From the IMG/VR virus record IMGVR_UViG_3300046373_000008, positions 1 to 20,729 of that record: a stretch of DNA of 20,729 bases, one strand, 5' to 3'. Positions within the stretch are counted from its first letter, which is position 1. The number at the start of each line of letters is the position of its first letter. This DNA is from a virus. Below are positions 16,084 to 20,729 of the stretch, in pieces. Position numbers and translations under genes: made by a program. The notes beneath the pieces were generated by a model. It was given only the letters and a program-made list of their open reading frames with translations, searched no databases and had not been told where the DNA came from.

Positions 16084-16663
16084 CTACATCTCTCGCGCCG
16101 CAGGCGCACTATTCGTAACGATCGCTGCAGTCGTAGGTGTACACGAGGGCAGGTCCCTCGTTGCGTACTACGACAGTGCGAATGTCTTAACCATCTGTGA
16201 CGGGGACACCCGTGACGTTAAACCGGGCCAGAAGGCCACACCAGCAGAGTGCGACGATCGCCTACGCAAAGGTATTGCTGATCACGCAAAAGCTCTTGAC
16301 GGGCTTCCTGAGGGCCTTCCTGACGTGGTTGTGCTGGGCAGCGTGGATCTCTCGTACAACATCGGTGTGTACGGGTTCCGTGGCAGTGAGGTGTACGCCC
16401 AGCTTATGCTGCGGAACTACAACGCAGCTGCTAATGCTGTACTGCGCTGGCGGTACATCTCTCAGAGTAAAGCCCCGGCCCCAGCAGCCGGTTGGGTGTA
16501 CTCACCCGCCTCTAAGAAGTGGCGCTTCGATTGCTCCCAGATCCTGAATGGGGCACCGAACAAGGTGTGCTATGGCCTGTGGAAACGTCGGCTGTGGCAA
16601 TCCCAAGCGATAGGGAATCAGTTCAAGTCGTTACAGGAGGCTGTTACAGCGGTACCGAAGTAG
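16067..16663 (+). CDS. SAR endolysin, GH24 lysozyme
   Basis: This 198-residue muramidase has a signal-anchor-release N-terminus: basic residues (SLKSSYISR) then a weakly hydrophobic, Ala/Gly-rich span at about 11-25. The catalytic triad follows with exactly the T4 lysozyme spacing: E27 in HEG, D36 in YYD, T42 in LTIC (9 and 6 residues apart, as E11, D20, T26). Later parts fit GH24: SVDLSYNIGVYGF (about 93-105), a WRYISQ segment, and GLWKRR near the end. The region between them is longer than in R21, with two extra Cys. There is no Cys inside the SAR segment, so activation by membrane release as in R21 is more likely than a P1 Lyz-type thiol switch. It starts inside the holin gene; only a weak AAGGG lies upstream, suggesting translational coupling. 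Confidence 0.92.
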   Translation: MSLKSSYISRAAGALFVTIAAVVGVHEGRSLVAYYDSANVLTICDGDTRDVKPGQKATPAECDDRLRKGIADHAKALDGLPEGLPDVVVLGSVDLSYNIGVYGFRGSEVYAQLMLRNYNAAANAVLRWRYISQSKAPAPAAGWVYSPASKKWRFDCSQILNGAPNKVCYGLWKRRLWQSQAIGNQFKSLQEAVTAVPK

Positions 16664-16691
16664 CGGCACTGCACAGGGTAGCGGGCTAGGA

Positions 16692-16726
16692 GGTGCGTGT
16701 TCTATGCGCACCCGAATTTTATTATA
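16692..16726 (+). terminator. Intrinsic terminator closing the late operon
   Basis: GGTGCG at 16692-16697 pairs perfectly with CGCACC at 16707-16712 around a 9-nt loop, and a T-rich run (TTTTATTATA, 16717-16726) follows after four bases. It lies 28 bases after the endolysin stop and before the start of the gene-free region, as expected for the end of late transcription. The spacing between stem and T-run and the interruptions in the run make it moderate rather than strong. Confidence 0.65.
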
Positions 16727-16734
16727 CTCCCGCG

Positions 16735-17040
16735 ACCCTGTCCCTCCACCTCAACCGCCCGCCACGCCCCCGTACGGGTGCCTGTGTGCGTGCCTGTGTG
16801 CGGGAGCGTGCGTGTCCATGGGTGCGAGCGTGCGTAGCACGCGAGCGCGGGTGGTGCGTGTGTGCGTACTGCGTGCGCATCGCGTCTGGAGGATCGTGCT
16901 GGTGTGTGGGTGTGCTGGGCAGGCGAGTGCGTGTGGGTGCGCGCTTGCCTTGTGCGCCTGCGCTTGCCTGCGTTCGCTCGTGCCTGTGCTCGGGTGCGTG
17001 TGGGACGTGCGTACGCCTGCGTTGCTTGCCTCGCGTACAC
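16735..17040 (+). repeat. A-depleted, GT/GC-rich low-complexity tract with TGCG repeats
   Basis: A short C-rich lead-in (16735-16771) and a CCCGTACGGG palindrome (16769-16778) are followed by about 250 bases dominated by G, T and C. I count 14 A in the 252 bases 16779-17030, and none at all from 16927 to 17004. TGCG occurs about 17 times. A 12-mer, TGCCTGTGTGCG, is perfectly tandemly duplicated at 16779-16802. Runs of strict purine/pyrimidine alternation (16854-16869 and 16870-16880) could favour Z-DNA. Open frames run through it on both strands, but they encode Arg/Cys/Val or Thr/His/Arg low-complexity strings with no gene-like features. It lies between the late terminator and the early promoters. 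Its function is unknown; a role in packaging, replication or genome ends is inference. Confidence 0.75.
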
Positions 17041-17122
17041 ACTCGGTTCGCTCTGGCTGTGCTGGGTATCTCTGGCCTAGGCTTGGGGTTCCGTCCTCAG
17101 TCGCTCAGTCCTCTGGCTGCGC

Positions 17123-17147
17123 CTTCGTTCTTCGTTCTTCGTACGAA
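17123..17147 (+). repeat. Heptamer direct repeats ending in a palindrome
   Basis: CTTCGTT occurs at 17123-17129 and 17130-17136, followed by CTTCGTA at 17137-17143, giving three tandem heptamers. The last one runs into the palindrome TTCGTACGAA (17138-17147). T7 carries arrays of a different heptamer next to its terminal repeats, so this may mark a genome end here too. That analogy is inference and the array is very short. Confidence 0.45.
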
Positions 17148-17388
17148 TAGTGCGGTGCTATTGCGGAAGGCTCTAGATCAATGGTTCTAGGCGTGTTGTT
17201 CTAGGGTTATCCTGCGAGTGCTAGGAGTGATTAACTCGACGAACGGTAGTTCCAATGGGTTCGATTCTGTGGTCTTATGGCTCCACGTTCTGACGAGGTA
17301 AGACCGGAAGGCACTCTCAGGATTAGGTGGTACGGGCTAGCATGGTTCGCCATGATTGGGACTTCCAACCACCGATGCAACACAAGGC
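17148..17388 (+). other. Gene-free region with short repeats and a two-part hairpin
   Basis: No open frame here looks like a gene. GTTCTAGG is repeated at 17184-17191 and 17198-17205, and CTAGA/TCTAG (17173-17177 and 17186-17190) forms a small inverted repeat. GGTGGT at 17326-17331 pairs with ACCACC at 17368-17373. Inside it CATGG and CCATG (17341-17345 and 17350-17354) close a TTCG tetraloop, giving a stable stem. The structure ends 15 bases before the first early promoter-like sequence. It could be a terminator relic, a protein-binding site or part of the terminal repeat; nothing decides between these. Confidence 0.5.
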
Positions 17389-17417
17389 TTGACAGATACA
17401 CAGATTCAAAGCATCAT
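17389..17417 (+). promoter_or_regulatory. Early sigma70-type promoter candidate 1
   Basis: A perfect -35 hexamer TTGACA (17389-17394) is followed after 17 bases by CATCAT (17412-17417), a 4-of-6 match to the -10. Transcription would begin near 17424, about 17 bases before the boxA. It resembles the second candidate at 17685-17713: over 31 aligned positions 21 agree, including TTGACAG and ACACAG at the same offsets. A host RNA polymerase promoter is expected at the start of a T7-type early region. The -10 is imperfect. Confidence 0.55.
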
Positions 17418-17440
17418 GGCTCCAACGTAACAAGCTGCAC

Positions 17441-17452
17441 CGCTCTTTAACA
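17441..17452 (+). promoter_or_regulatory. boxA antitermination site (rrn-type)
   Basis: The 12 bases CGCTCTTTAACA match the boxA consensus of enterobacterial rRNA leaders (YGCTCTTTAACA) at every position. In RNA, boxA binds NusB-NusE (S10) and, with other Nus factors, makes RNA polymerase resistant to Rho on untranslated RNA. It is placed as in rRNA leaders: a short distance after a promoter and just before a long processing-type stem (its last base is one base from the stem arm at 17454). The sequence match is direct; function in this phage is inferred. Confidence 0.65.
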
Positions 17453-17493
17453 ACTTGAGTCTCCTTTGGCGAATCCACACAGGACGCGCCACC

Positions 17494-17655
17494 ATGACTA
17501 AGCGATACAAAGATTGGGCAATGGATCACGACTGGGCTAGCAGCTTCGTAATGATCGGACGTAACCACTACGGCCAGGATCTTTACCTTGTGACAACTCG
17601 ATCAGGTGAACGATTCACTAACTATCAGGAAATGCGGGCATGGGCAGGCTACTGA
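17494..17655 (+). CDS. Small early protein of unknown function (53 residues)
   Basis: I do not recognise this protein. It is rich in aromatic and charged residues (KRYKDWAMDHDWASSF..., then NHYGQDLYLVTTRSGERFTNYQEMRAWAGY), has no membrane segment, and looks like a compact globular domain of two or three strands and a helix. The ATG at 17494 is preferred over an in-frame TTG at 17455, which would place the start inside the predicted stem arm. AGGA at 17481-17484 is a modest ribosome binding site 9 bases upstream. It is the first gene after the early promoter and boxA, enclosed by the 20-bp inverted repeat. T7-type phages place host-takeover or anti-restriction proteins at this position, but nothing in the sequence shows that role here. 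Confidence 0.6.
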   Translation: MTKRYKDWAMDHDWASSFVMIGRNHYGQDLYLVTTRSGERFTNYQEMRAWAGY

Positions 17656-17664
17656 TTCAGTAGC
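17648..17664 (+). other. 7-bp hairpin at the end of the 53-codon gene
   Basis: GCTACTG (17648-17654) and CAGTAGC (17658-17664) form a perfect 7-bp stem with a 3-base loop that includes the stop codon of the small gene. No T-run follows, so it is not a convincing terminator. It sits just inside the right arm of the 20-bp inverted repeat and may extend that structure. Confidence 0.5.
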
Positions 17665-17684
17665 TTCGCCAAAGGAGATTCAGG

Positions 17685-17713
17685 TTGACAGCAACACAGG
17701 GTTCCGGTAGCAT
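17685..17713 (+). promoter_or_regulatory. Early sigma70-type promoter candidate 2
   Basis: TTGACA (17685-17690), a 17-base spacer, then TAGCAT (17708-17713, 4 of 6). It copies the spacing and much of the spacer of candidate 1 (TTGACAG-NN-ACACAG in both, and CATGG at the same distance). Transcription would begin near 17720 and feed the hairpin-rich region and the early genes. The same TTG follows AAAGGAG at a ribosome-binding distance, so a translational start is the competing reading; the conserved promoter layout makes the promoter reading better. Confidence 0.55.
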
Positions 17714-17717
17714 GGGA

Positions 17718-18255
17718 ACCACTAGCCAAACGGGGCTAGGGTGGATCGGGAAGCTCAGTGATGGGTGGACTGCTAAGCTCGAACTGTACCACGGAATGAG
17801 TGGCGTTGAAGGTGGACTGCTAGAGCTGCAAGGTGATAGCACAAGCTGGATGCTGACAAGCCGCACGGTTGGTAGATGCGGCGCCCTTCTTAGATCCTAG
17901 GGCGGAACCTGATGTTGAGAGGCATCGGCAGGATCAAGCGGTTTGAGTCACCGTCCGCGGAGTTACAGCGGGAAACGAAGGCCCACGGGAAAGCGCGGTG
18001 GGAAGCAAGGCGAGCTTGTACAGGTGTCTTGGCTGGTACAACTTGGGTAGCACAGCGGGCCGATTGAACAAGGCCAAGCAACCGCACTAGGTATCACCGA
18101 CGTGCAACACAATGCTCTAGAAACCAGAGAGCGTGTTGTCGGATTGCCCGAAGGGGACGGATCAAAGACTAGCTAGGGATGCGCTTAAACCGCTGTGTTA
18201 CAAGACAATCCTACTCCCGCCCTTCGGGGCTATGACAATGCCAAGTTACGGAGAG
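17718..18255 (+). ncRNA. Candidate structured non-coding RNA, hairpin-rich leader of the early genes
   Basis: About 540 bases with no convincing gene but many local hairpins. Perfect stems include CTAGCC/GGCTAG (17722-17727, 17734-17739), GCCGCA/TGCGGC (17860-17865, 17877-17882), CGCCCT/AGGGCG (17882-17887, 17899-17904), CCCAC/GTGGG (17982-17986, 17998-18002) and TTGTAC/GTACAA (18016-18021, 18036-18041). There is a long composite hairpin at 18097-18142, and GCCC-TTCG-GGGC at 18219-18230, a hyperstable tetraloop. GGTGGACTGCTA is repeated at 17765-17776 and 17811-17822. It follows promoter candidate 2 and ends at the 22-bp helix. I cannot assign it to a known RNA family. It may be a stable phage RNA, an antitermination RNA, or simply a structured leader. 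Confidence 0.4.
18097..18142 (+). other. Long composite hairpin within the candidate RNA
   Basis: Three stacked stems can form: CCGA/TCGG (18097-18100 with 18139-18142), CAACAC/GTGTTG (18105-18110 with 18133-18138), and GCTCT/AGAGC (18114-18118 with 18128-18132). They are separated by a 4-base and a 3-base bulge on the 5' side only. All 15 pairs are Watson-Crick. The 3' strand is uninterrupted, which is a regular pattern unlikely by chance in 46 bases. Confidence 0.6.
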
Positions 18256-18385
18256 GATTGATTCTGAGAGGGTTCTATGATGGAACTGGTAGACAACGAC
18301 TTAGTACCTGTTTGCGTAGCAACGGGGAACAGGCAGCCTAACGGCGTCCGGGTCGAATCCCGGTAGAACCCTCTCAGAATCAATC
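18256..18385 (+). repeat. Perfect 22-bp helix enclosing a tRNA-like fold
   Basis: The arms 18256-18277 and 18364-18385 are exact reverse complements over 22 bases, with 86 bases between. The inside looks like a tRNA. TG follows the left arm as at positions 8-9. GGAACTGGTAGAC (18282-18294) resembles a tRNA-Leu D arm. GCC-TAAC-GGC is like a class II variable arm. CCGGG-TCGAAT-CCCGG (18348-18363) is a T-arm-like hairpin stacked directly on the right arm, with one base missing from the loop. The anticodon region is abnormal: CCTGTT (18307-18312) pairs with AACAGG (18328-18333) around a 15-base loop. It is therefore not a working canonical tRNA. The right arm ends at the GGAGG of the next gene. 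Likely roles are an RNase III site, a tRNA mimic or a decayed tRNA. Confidence 0.8.
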
Positions 18386-18398
18386 GGAGGATACGAGA

Positions 18399-18674
18399 AT
18401 GGCATTCTCAAAGAAAGTTGAGAGCCATGCCGATGATGCGCAGAAGTGCCGCCGTCGGTATGACTTGGTACAGCACCTGTCTACCCAAAAGACGGTGGAA
18501 GCAAGAAAGCAGCTCAAGGCAATGCGTGACGTCTGGTACGGCACGGATAAGCCGGGGACTGCTGGTGAGTACTGGAACCCGAAGGCCAAGCAATTGGTAC
18601 GTGGCTCCAGCGGGAAGTGTGACCGGATCAACCGGGGCCATAGGGCCAAACTCAATCAAGCAATGGGACTCTGA
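18399..18674 (+). CDS. Small basic early protein of unknown function
   Basis: This 91-residue protein is not recognised. It is strongly basic and polar: a helical first half (KKVESHADDAQKCRRRYDLVQHLSTQKTVEARKQLKAM, shown by its key run VEARKQLKAM at about 33-42) and a Gly/Lys-rich tail with RGSSGKCDRINRGHRAK. There is no membrane span. High charge suggests nucleic-acid or ribosome contact, but no known motif is visible. The ATG follows GGAGG (18386-18390) by 8 bases; that site begins directly after the 22-bp helix, so processing or folding there could control translation. It is the first gene after the long leader. Confidence 0.75.
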   Translation: MAFSKKVESHADDAQKCRRRYDLVQHLSTQKTVEARKQLKAMRDVWYGTDKPGTAGEYWNPKAKQLVRGSSGKCDRINRGHRAKLNQAMGL

Positions 18675-18675
18675 C

Positions 18676-19176
18676 ATGAAAACTACACTGATCGTTGGTG
18701 CTGCGAACATCACCAAAGAAATTGGCCTGATCAAGACCGCTGGCGCTAAGCTGGACGAACGTATCCAGCTCGCCGGCCTGTCGGTACTGAGCCACGCCCA
18801 CCAACACGGCGATATCACCGTCGTGAACCAGCTCTTCCTCGCCCTGCCGAAGGGTGCACGTGGCAAGGCCATGGCCGAGTGGTTGCTGGCGTTCGGTAAC
18901 GTCCAGAAGAACACGGACAAGGCGTCGGCTAAGCTCTCGCCGTTCAGCTACGCCAAGGAGCGCACTGCCAAGGATGAAGAGTCGCTGGCGAAGGTAATGC
19001 AAGCGGCCACGGACACTCCGTGGTACAAGTTCGCCCCAGAACCGAAGGTGGCGGACATGTTCGACTTCGGCGCGGCGCTGGCCCGCCTGATGAAAGCGGC
19101 TGAACAGGCCGAGGCCAAAGGCCAGAAGATTGAAGGCGCCGACCTGCTGAGTAAGGTACGCAAAGCGGCTGTGTGA
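18676..19176 (+). CDS. Conserved-type phage early protein, function unknown
   Basis: This 166-residue protein starts MKTTLIVGAANI and continues with a helical region containing RIQLAGLSVLSHAHQHGD and LPKGARGKAMAEWLLAFG (about residues 29-75). I recall similar sequences as uncharacterised proteins in podophage and siphophage early regions, but I cannot name a function. A charged middle (ASAKLSPFSYAKERTAKDEE) is followed by TPWYKFAPEP and a helical, Ala/Lys-rich end. No membrane or catalytic motif is visible. The start at 18676 is one base after the previous stop, so reinitiation is likely; there is no strong ribosome binding site. A longer frame starting upstream merely overlaps the preceding gene. 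Confidence 0.8.
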   Translation: MKTTLIVGAANITKEIGLIKTAGAKLDERIQLAGLSVLSHAHQHGDITVVNQLFLALPKGARGKAMAEWLLAFGNVQKNTDKASAKLSPFSYAKERTAKDEESLAKVMQAATDTPWYKFAPEPKVADMFDFGAALARLMKAAEQAEAKGQKIEGADLLSKVRKAAV

Positions 19177-19186
19177 TAGCAAATGA

Positions 19187-19209
19187 CTGCGCATTCAACG
19201 AGTGCGCAG
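19187..19209 (+). other. 7-bp hairpin between early genes
   Basis: CTGCGCA (19187-19193) and TGCGCAG (19203-19209) form a perfect 7-bp stem with a 9-base loop in the 69-base gap between two early genes. No T-run follows, so RNA processing or stabilisation is more likely than termination. Its place supports the downstream start at 19246 rather than 19183. Confidence 0.5.
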
Positions 19210-19245
19210 CAGTGTGTTATCAACGAACCGGTGACGAGGTGCGTC

Positions 19246-19680
19246 ATGGCTAAGGTGTACAGAGTGGTAGACCACAAGGGTAAGGGCATGTACCGCCCGG
19301 GCGAGAACCGTCCAAGCCTGTGGGCGCTGGCGGTAGGTAATAACGTGGACAATATATACAGCCACCCAAGCCCATGGAATGATCGGAATATGACCGAGAA
19401 CTGGCCAGCGTACGCCCAACGGCATGGGTTGAAAGGCGCCCACGACTACTGGTACATGGACCAGCTCAAGACGCATGCCTTTGCATTTGACTCTGTGCAC
19501 CAGCTCCGCCGCTGGATCTATGGCGTGGGCTGGCTCGAAGCTATGCATGAACTCGGCGGCGTGGCGCAGGTGTACGAGGTGCCTGATGAGTACATCCTCG
19601 TCGGGCTGTGTCAGGTGACGTTCGACACTCGGTATGCTGAGAGGCTGCCGGACGTGTCTCTGATCGCACTGGAGGCGTGA
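19246..19680 (+). CDS. Unknown early protein, aromatic-rich
   Basis: This 144-residue protein is not recognised. It starts MAKVYRVVDHKGKGMYRPG, and carries many Trp, Tyr and His residues (DNIYSHPSPWNDR, HDYWYMDQLKTHAFAF, LRRWIYGVGWLEAMHE), then a beta-rich end with AQVYEVPDEYILVGLCQVTFDT. It looks soluble and globular. The pattern is reminiscent of small ADP-ribosyltransferase-like or modification-type folds, but no active-site signature can be pinned down, so no function is claimed. The ATG at 19246 follows GAGGT by 5 bases. An in-frame ATG at 19183 would add 21 residues but lies upstream of an intergenic hairpin and lacks a ribosome binding site. Confidence 0.75.
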   Translation: MAKVYRVVDHKGKGMYRPGENRPSLWALAVGNNVDNIYSHPSPWNDRNMTENWPAYAQRHGLKGAHDYWYMDQLKTHAFAFDSVHQLRRWIYGVGWLEAMHELGGVAQVYEVPDEYILVGLCQVTFDTRYAERLPDVSLIALEA

Positions 19681-19681
19681 T

Positions 19682-19810
19682 ATGTGGCAAGCCTTATGCT
19701 GGACAGGCCACGGCTTTGATACGTGCTGGCGGCCCGGTACAATCGCTCTGAACATGGTCTGCTGCGAGGCGGACGCTCCCTTTACTCAAATCAGGCTGGG
19801 CAAGTTATGA
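19682..19810 (+). CDS. 42-residue cysteine-containing small protein
   Basis: A short frame with four Cys (residues 6, 15, 27 and 28), three Trp and one His. The N-terminal part CWTGHGFDTCW could bind a metal or form disulfides, but with so few residues this is only a possibility. Support for it being real: GGAGG at 19671-19675 lies 6 bases upstream, the start is 1 base after the previous stop, and its stop overlaps the ATG of the lipoprotein gene by the ATGA arrangement, which suggests coupling. I do not recognise it. Confidence 0.55.
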   Translation: MWQALCWTGHGFDTCWRPGTIALNMVCCEADAPFTQIRLGKL

Positions 19811-19953
19811 AACTCGTAGGTACCGCAATCATTCTGGCTGGCGTACTCCTGCTCCTTCAGGGTTGCGCTGTGAACGTGGTCGTCGCACCACACGCAAGCG
19901 TCGACGTAGGCTATGCCTGCAAGGCTGGCGATCATGTTGGACAAGGCAGCTAG
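19807..19953 (+). CDS. Small early lipoprotein (48 residues)
   Basis: A classical lipoprotein signal peptide: MKL, then hydrophobic residues 4-17 and a lipobox LQGC with Cys20. Signal peptidase II would leave a 29-residue lipidated peptide with Ala at +2, predicting the outer membrane. The mature part is short, with a second Cys and no known domain. It is not a spanin subunit by position, since lysis genes are elsewhere and already include a spanin. Small early phage lipoproteins such as T5 Llp block receptors against superinfection, so that role is plausible but unproven. It starts in an ATGA overlap with the upstream 42-codon gene and its 3' end overlaps the next gene. Confidence 0.7.
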   Translation: MKLVGTAIILAGVLLLLQGCAVNVVVAPHASVDVGYACKAGDHVGQGS

Positions 19954-20227
19954 TGCGTCAATAGGTATCCTGTGTGTAATCATCTCCGTGAGCACGTTCA
20001 TCGAGATGTACACTGCCGTGACAGGCGCTGGGCCGCATCGTACACCGGACACGGGTGCAATGTGGCAGCAAGCGAATACGGTCGCTGAGCAGCACTGCAA
20101 GTTGCTAGTGCTAAAGGAGGTGCTGAAAATGCAGTTGCCTCCTGAGGCATTCAGCGATCCTGCACTGGCCAACGCAATGCAGGCAGGGTACGAACTGTGC
20201 CTGAGGAAGAACAAGGTGATGATATGA
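19934..20227 (+). CDS. Single-pass membrane protein of unknown function
   Basis: From the ATG at 19934 the protein has 97 residues. A hydrophobic segment at about 9-23 (SIGILCVIISVSTFI) is followed by a soluble helical domain with PDTGAMWQQANTVAEQHCKLLVLKE and a polar C-terminus. It probably sits in the inner membrane with the bulk on one side. AAGG at 19920-19923 precedes 19934; an ATG at 19913 is in frame and would add seven residues, but has no comparable site. It overlaps the lipoprotein gene by 20 bases. The two neighbouring envelope proteins may act together, for example in superinfection exclusion; this is inference. Confidence 0.65.
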   Translation: MLDKAASASIGILCVIISVSTFIEMYTAVTGAGPHRTPDTGAMWQQANTVAEQHCKLLVLKEVLKMQLPPEAFSDPALANAMQAGYELCLRKNKVMI

Positions 20228-20382
20228 AAAAGCTGCCCAAGCCCAAGGCTGTGTTCATCGAAGGCGTATGGCTAGTGCACTATCCGGGCACGTACAGCAA
20301 GTACGCCCACACATTGCAAGTAGCGTACCTGTTGTGGGAACATTGCAACTGGACTCGCTCCCGCATCATGCGGACGGTGTGA
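20224..20382 (+). CDS. Small early protein, 52 residues, unknown
   Basis: Starts MKKLPKPKAVFIEGVWLVHYPGTYSK and ends in a basic helix (NWTRSRIMRTV). It has no membrane span and is not recognised. The start overlaps the previous stop as ATGA, so translation is probably coupled; GAGGAAG and AAGGTG stretches lie just upstream. An in-frame ATG at 20197 is inside the preceding gene and is less likely. Confidence 0.65.
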   Translation: MKKLPKPKAVFIEGVWLVHYPGTYSKYAHTLQVAYLLWEHCNWTRSRIMRTV

Positions 20383-20383
20383 C

Positions 20384-20578
20384 GTGAGCATCGTCGTGTC
20401 AGAGCAGAATGATGTGGTCATACCTGAATGCCCACATCGCGGGAACGTGGCCGGATTCATAGACGTGACGTCGGCCACGTTCTATCCCATCAACGAGGCG
20501 TATGACACGCCAGCTATGACGGCTCAGGACCTGCGCGATTTAGCAGACCACCTAGACGCTTTGCGAGGTGCAGCATGA
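20384..20578 (+). CDS. Small early protein, 64 residues, GTG start, unknown
   Basis: The sequence begins MSIVVSEQNDVVIPECPHRGN and ends with a helix, TAQDLRDLADHLDALRGAA. A Cys-Pro-His sequence is present but no full metal site. It is soluble and not recognised. The GTG start is one base after the previous stop, consistent with reinitiation, and its own stop overlaps the next start in an ATGA arrangement. No strong ribosome binding site is visible. Confidence 0.6.
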   Translation: MSIVVSEQNDVVIPECPHRGNVAGFIDVTSATFYPINEAYDTPAMTAQDLRDLADHLDALRGAA

Positions 20579-20709
20579 AGTACGGCATCCGATACCATGA
20601 CAAGCGCTGGTGGGTGTACGAGGTGGCTGCCAATCGTATCGTGAGCAAGGGTTACATCCTGCGCTTCACGGCACGGTGGATGAGCGATCGTATGAACGAA
20701 CGAGGTTAG
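20575..20709 (+). CDS. Small basic early protein, 44 residues, unknown
   Basis: Encodes MKYGIRYHDKRWWVYEVAANRI followed by a basic helix with FTARWMSDRMNERG. Several aromatic and Arg/Lys residues suggest nucleic-acid or protein binding, but no family is recognised. GAGGTG lies 5 bases before the ATG, which overlaps the upstream stop (ATGA). It is complete within the window, 20 bases before its end. Confidence 0.6.
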   Translation: MKYGIRYHDKRWWVYEVAANRIVSKGYILRFTARWMSDRMNERG

Positions 20710-20729
20710 CTGTACCCTGTGCTCTAGTC

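Follow-up and report, generated by a model that had tools for sequence, protein, structure and literature searches.

A tRNA-Leu-like element in the loop of a conserved early-leader hairpin of a Kantovirus-like phage

The window analyzed here is the whole stretch of a 20,729-nt IMG/VR virus record, in which the late genes, the terminase and the early genes are closest to those of Kantovirus C171 and other phiKMV-like Autographiviridae, relatives whose known hosts are mostly Pseudomonas. Between 16.66 and 18.40 kb, the end of the endolysin gene is followed by a GT-rich, terminal-repeat-like stretch and then by a mostly non-coding early leader, which ends at an ORF at 18399, the first early gene (gene 1). 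The terminal-repeat-like stretch (16700-17050) is GT/GC-rich and quasi-repetitive (GCGTGCGTGC...), lies between the endolysin and the leader, resembles the annotated direct terminal repeat of phage Ep4 (L005:6288-6551) in place and make-up, and is probably a terminal repeat joined in a concatemer. Three promoter-like sites were found in the region (0.8 expected), two of the three being on the + strand. The features on which the analysis builds are the following.

17389-17417 and 17685-17713, + strand: two sigma-70-like promoters upstream of the leader, by consensus match only
18256..18270, + strand: 5' strand of the outer leader helix (15 bp), in register with the leader stem conserved in relatives
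18271..18277, + strand: acceptor-like 5' strand GGTTCTA (7 bp) at the inner end of the 22-bp helix, aligned to tRNA-Leu acceptor positions 1-7
18278..18296, + strand: U8-G9 and D arm (TGATGGAACTGGTAGACAA) of tRNA-Leu type (TG-ATGGAACTGGTAGACAA), directly 3' of the 5' arm, with 19/19 identity to phage tRNA-Leu(UAA) genes
18297..18306, + strand: CGACTTAGTA, a possible 5' anticodon-arm remnant by alignment (CTTAG as in tRNA-Leu UAG), short and suggestive only
18307..18333, + strand: 27-nt hairpin CCUGUUU...GAACAGG in place of the anticodon arm, from pair probabilities, with the anticodon-arm model positions unmatched
18336..18345, + strand: variable-arm-like hairpin GCC-TAAC-GGC (type II tRNA), from covariance models and pair probabilities
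18348..18363, + strand: T-arm-like hairpin CCGGG-TCGAAT-CCCGG with a 6-nt loop instead of 7, from covariance models and pair probabilities
18364..18385, + strand: 3' strand of the 22-bp helix, acceptor-like over 18364-18370 and part of the leader stem over 18371-18385
18386..18390, + strand: Shine-Dalgarno GGAGG directly 3' of the helix, at a place homologous in relatives
18399..18674, + strand: gene 1, first early gene downstream of the leader (91 aa, PHROG 5722, function unknown), homologue of phiKMV ORF1 and C171_00130

The central feature is a perfect 22-bp inverted repeat, GATTGATTCTGAGAGGGTTCTA (18256-18277) and TAGAACCCTCTCAGAATCAATC (18364-18385), which encloses 86 nt and is composed of 7 acceptor-like base pairs and a 15-bp leader helix, the latter laid out as eight outer pairs, a C (opposite G here and in a C-A mismatch in most relatives) and then the inner pairs. 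It is the longest perfect helix within 16600-20729, and about 3e-7 perfect repeats of such length are expected by chance in the window. The fold has an MFE of -62.3 kcal/mol (z -6.9; equally stable shuffles, 0/200), and the nearest-neighbour model gives pair probabilities of 0.87-1.0 for the long stem, 0.72-0.97 for the T stem, 0.99 for the variable stem and 0.62-0.91 for the hairpin replacing the anticodon arm, while the D stem, with two possible base pairs, is not formed (probability 0.01). The 3' end of the helix abuts the Shine-Dalgarno sequence of the ORF whose ATG is at 18399, and this sequence is unpaired in this phage. An earlier note on this DNA had described a perfect 22-bp stem, equal to two helical turns, beside a ribosome binding site, and both parts of this description are borne out, as 22 bp of dsRNA in the early mRNA leader adjoin the gene start. 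An intrinsic terminator was considered and rejected, given that GGAGGATACGAG lies 3' of the stem with no U-run and that the terminator listing has none at the site.

In order to compare this helix across phages, the leaders of relatives were gathered and folded, and a covariation set of 11 phages, including this one, was put together by hand from the fetched loci. A helix in the same register was found just 5' of gene 1 in at least 10 other Pseudomonas Autographiviridae (VSW-3, Misse, SeaP4, PollyC, kF77, P1G, phiNV3, phiGM22-3, phi-2 and MKPT02). The stem alignment was anchored on one C, which is opposite A or C in 8 of the 11 phages and opposite G in this phage, kF77 and P1G. Over 16 positions, 92% of cells are paired in register versus 27-46% when the arms are slid by 1-3, and most stem positions show compensatory change with 3-4 standard pair types (e.g., GGTTGGTT/AACYAACC in relatives versus GATTGATT/AATCAATC in this phage), the set including two close pairs (kF77/P1G and phiGM22-3/phi-2), so that these counts do not equal independent events. 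The first ATG follows the 3' arm after 10-13 nt in 10 of the 11 phages and after 4 nt in Misse. In phi-2 (FN594518), the depositors had annotated a 25-bp inverted repeat (388-412/450-475) at the homologous site. The loops, on the other side, are hypervariable: between the compared arms they measure about 14-71 nt in relatives and 98 nt here, have no common content and, in the relatives, are varied and structured and never tRNA-like. Since pairing is compensatory and in register and the loop has no common content, the helix can be regarded as an old, selected leader element with a loop that is free to vary. Thus, on comparative sequence grounds, the outer helix belongs to an old leader hairpin that Pseudomonas Autographiviridae have conserved across genera by compensatory change. 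In five of the phages, phiGM22-3 (L213), phi-2 (L214), MKPT02 (L215), phiNV3 (L212) and VSW-3 (L022), the gene 1 Shine-Dalgarno sequence is itself the paired 3' foot of the leader stem, and according to the folding model, translation of gene 1 should there need opening or cleavage of the helix. The stems of phi-2, VSW-3, phiNV3, phiGM22-3, Misse and kF77 share with this phage the register, the place before gene 1 and the compensatory pairs, but their loops are without tRNA-like parts, several bury the Shine-Dalgarno sequence and most have C-A where this phage has C-G. C171, the closest relative, is without the helix and has other hairpins at the homologous place. The leader helix had no Rfam match in the sequences tested, a literature search found a description of neither the leader hairpin nor the tRNA-containing version, and a pattern search with the stem 16-mer returned unrelated chance matches only, with the second arm absent. 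A similar-looking imperfect 22-bp helix (L014, 7537-7676) was rejected as coding sequence.

Other structures were observed in the same leaders. A hairpin motif, stem-CTAYGCCAA-N(1-2)-GCCAAGGTYTG-stem, recurs in the early leaders of phiKMV-like and LUZ24-like phages (Clew-1, PaP4), and its closing stems differ among phages yet pair. It is present in a degenerate form at 18230-18246 of the window, and further sites are L018:1668, L004:9836, L021:1425, L087(-), L131:200, L145(-), L210:1690 and Clew-1 L216; matches of the pattern search were mostly chance or coding, with a few real ones, and the motif had no Rfam match in the leaders scanned. The hairpin is possibly a host-factor-binding or antitermination RNA. 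In the leaders of phiKMV (L018) and LKD16 (L210), the 3' side of the motif (GGTTTGTCCC) doubles as the 5' arm of the stem before gene 1, and since GGTTTGTCCC is common to both hairpins, these look mutually exclusive and switch-like. In addition, a 12-bp helix, GTAGCACAGCGG/CCGCTGTGTTAC, with the hairpin GGGCCGATTGAACAAGGCC is found at 18047-18201 of the window and matches a multibranched structure of the phiKMV leader (L018:1548-1662) and 89 phage records.

What sets this phage apart among those searched is the content of the loop. The earlier note had read D-, variable- and T-arm-like elements in it, and all of them could be located, although the D stem is not predicted to form. Its further remarks proved accurate: the T-like hairpin is stacked directly on the stem, with 18348-18363 flush with the 3' arm at 18364, the anticodon portion is abnormal, the 27-nt hairpin taking the place of the arm, and the T loop (TCGAAT) is short by one base, for which a one-base assembly error may be the source. 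Position 73 is a C (no discriminator A73) and the CCA is absent.

The resemblance to tRNA-Leu was evaluated with models of different independence. A first covariance model (R1) gave 46 bits (E 1e-11), a score that is partly circular, as the model was built from genes chosen by D-arm similarity. An independent covariance model (R2), built from the tRNA-Leu genes of E. coli K-12 and a Pseudomonadales genome, which were not chosen by similarity, matched the element with 26.2 bits (E 3.2e-5) over the full model length except the anticodon arm; the next best score in 10 kb was 11.3 bits, and the relatives' leaders gave no match. With a sequence-only tRNA-Leu profile, the best match in the window was exactly the D arm, with an E of 0.39, and 10 of 1,000 loop shuffles scored equally high. 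As this signal is weak, the case for tRNA-Leu rests on arm order, spacing and structure. The sequence TGATGGAACTGGTAGACAA occurs exactly in five IMG/VR contigs, two of which carry it in ARAGORN-called tRNA-Leu(UAA) genes (L030, L032) and one (L028) in a tRNA-Leu-like sequence with an insertion. The latter (L028:4570-4700, - strand) is unrelated to this phage and odd in its own right, with acceptor, D and T arms intact and long extra sequence in the anticodon/variable region, and it scores 47 bits with R1. An unselected blastn of the 161-nt region against phages returned a 22-nt match to the tRNA-Leu of T5-like Salmonella phages; its matches were confined to tRNA-Leu and chance pieces, none of them homologous to the element as such. 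ARAGORN found neither a tRNA gene (0 called) nor a tmRNA at the element, and an Rfam cmscan of the element gave no match even at E 10. Compared with phage tRNA-Leu genes (IMG/VR L030 and L032; T5-like Salmonella phage bux), the element shares the T arm, the long variable arm, and the order and spacing of the arms, with 19 nt of the D arm identical in L030 and L032, but it lacks the anticodon arm and the CCA, its T loop is 6 nt long and its acceptor helix is longer by 15 bp. On these statistics, the loop in this phage is a tRNA-Leu remnant in which the acceptor, D, variable and T elements retain the geometry of a tRNA and the anticodon arm is replaced.

The tRNA-bearing form was found in one copy, that of this phage, in collections that may omit records very near its genome. 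A gapped DNA pattern of the tRNA core found nothing, an IMG/VR protein scan with gene 1 alone found no relative, and protein scans with alignments found only C171-type contigs and one distant contig, none with the tRNA core. The note had made its tRNA-like reading depend on what covariation preserves among relatives, and there it is the stem only, with none of the D or T parts; the tRNA-Leu resemblance in this phage is nevertheless above chance. Given that covariation keeps only the stem, the tRNA-like part is neither ancestral nor conserved and is not needed for the role of the stem.

The explanation that we favor, with a probability of roughly 60%, is that the tolerant loop of an early-mRNA leader hairpin in a Kantovirus-like phage has captured a broken tRNA-Leu, the stem probably working like the RNase III sites of T7. 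Among the three proposals of the note, the best fit is the decayed tRNA-Leu captured into a stem, which is supported by R2 and by the presence of the stem in relatives without the tRNA part. The leader would be transcribed by host RNA polymerase from the upstream sigma-70-like promoters, and the two-turn helix would be recognized and cut by host RNase III, leaving a gene 1 mRNA with a short, clean 5' end and an open ribosome binding site; in those relatives whose helix buries the Shine-Dalgarno sequence, that sequence too would be freed once the helix is cut or opened. The acceptor stem of the remnant would stack on the old leader helix. Most probably, recombination brought in the tRNA part as a passenger, which would at most play a side role as a stably folded RNA freed on cleavage. 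The early mRNA of T7 has RNase III processing sites, R0.3 to R1.3. These share with the present leader the Autographiviridae early region and a long helix just 5' of a gene's ribosome binding site, but are shorter, contain an internal loop and have no tRNA core, and it is by analogy with them that we infer cleavage here. The best-supported role for the helix is T7-like processing or protection of the first early mRNA, based on its observed position, length, early context and covariation. The proposal of a new regulatory RNA controlling the gene at 18399 is a reasonable, though inferential, one for the stem, considering its position, its adjacency to the Shine-Dalgarno sequence and its covariation. 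As counterpoints to this explanation, the closest relative, C171, is without the helix, and the D arm being untouched and the T arm near-perfect could also point to selection on the tRNA fold.

It is possible, though we consider it rather less probable, that the helix acts as a translational switch, that is, as a cis-regulatory leader (a stability element or a ribosome standby site) with no RNase III cut and with irrelevant loop content. The Shine-Dalgarno sequence adjoining the helix here, and its burial in the stem base of phi-2, phiGM22-3, MKPT02, phiNV3 and VSW-3, would agree with this, whereas the Shine-Dalgarno sequence of this phage is free and the long near-perfect dsRNA exceeds what a standby site or a stabilizing hairpin needs.

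Selection for tRNA mimicry is unlikely. In such a case, RNase III (perhaps RNase P) would free a tRNA-Leu-like RNA of ~100 nt that binds a tRNA-handling host factor as decoy or regulator, candidate partners being RNase P, leucyl-tRNA synthetase, EF-Tu or a tRNA-targeting defence nuclease. The acceptor, U8-G9 and the D, variable and T arms are ordered and spaced as in a tRNA, the 19-nt D arm is intact, and the anticodon is not needed by bacterial leucyl-tRNA synthetase. Against this, the T loop has 6 nt, there is no CCA or A73, the acceptor is locked inside the 22-bp helix, the D stem is not predicted to form, and the anticodon loop, which defence nucleases usually target, is gone. Moreover, with the core in no relative searched and no second copy, comparative support is missing, which leaves the note's proposal of a tRNA mimic, if taken as one with a selected function, unsupported. 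The more specific idea of a decoding-free mimic, in which a single RNase III cut would yield the gene 1 mRNA together with a tRNA-like RNA that acts on host factors handling tRNA as infection starts, is quite unlikely. tmRNA and viral tRNA-like structures likewise have a T arm stacked on an acceptor-like helix and no decoding arm, but the element differs from them in having no tag ORF and no CCA 3' end and in being internal to an mRNA leader; a tmRNA reading was rejected, as ARAGORN finds none.

That the loop merely looks tRNA-like by chance is very unlikely: the sequence-only E and the varied, structured loops of relatives would allow it, but the independent structure-aware model places the arms correctly at E 3e-5, and the identity of 19 nt with real tRNA-Leu genes lies at the right junction. 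That the element is a functional tRNA-Leu gene, interrupted by an intron or odd in its anticodon arm, for which a tRNA-Leu(UAG)-like 5' half with CTTAG could be cited, is scarcely credible, with no call by ARAGORN or by Rfam at E 10 and no pairing 3' anticodon strand, and a working tRNA-Leu is refuted on sequence by the lack of a 5-bp anticodon stem with a 7-nt loop and a Leu anticodon, of a 7-nt T loop and of A73/CCA.

With capture of a broken tRNA-Leu as the preferred reading, the locus indicates that a conserved phage leader hairpin can accept a foreign structured RNA, here a tRNA, in its loop, with the helix retained. Loop capture would be a concrete route for phages to gain structured RNAs or tRNA mimics that are new. 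The covarying leader helix, for its part, is common to many Pseudomonas Autographiviridae and is testable in laboratory phages, such as phi-2 and VSW-3.
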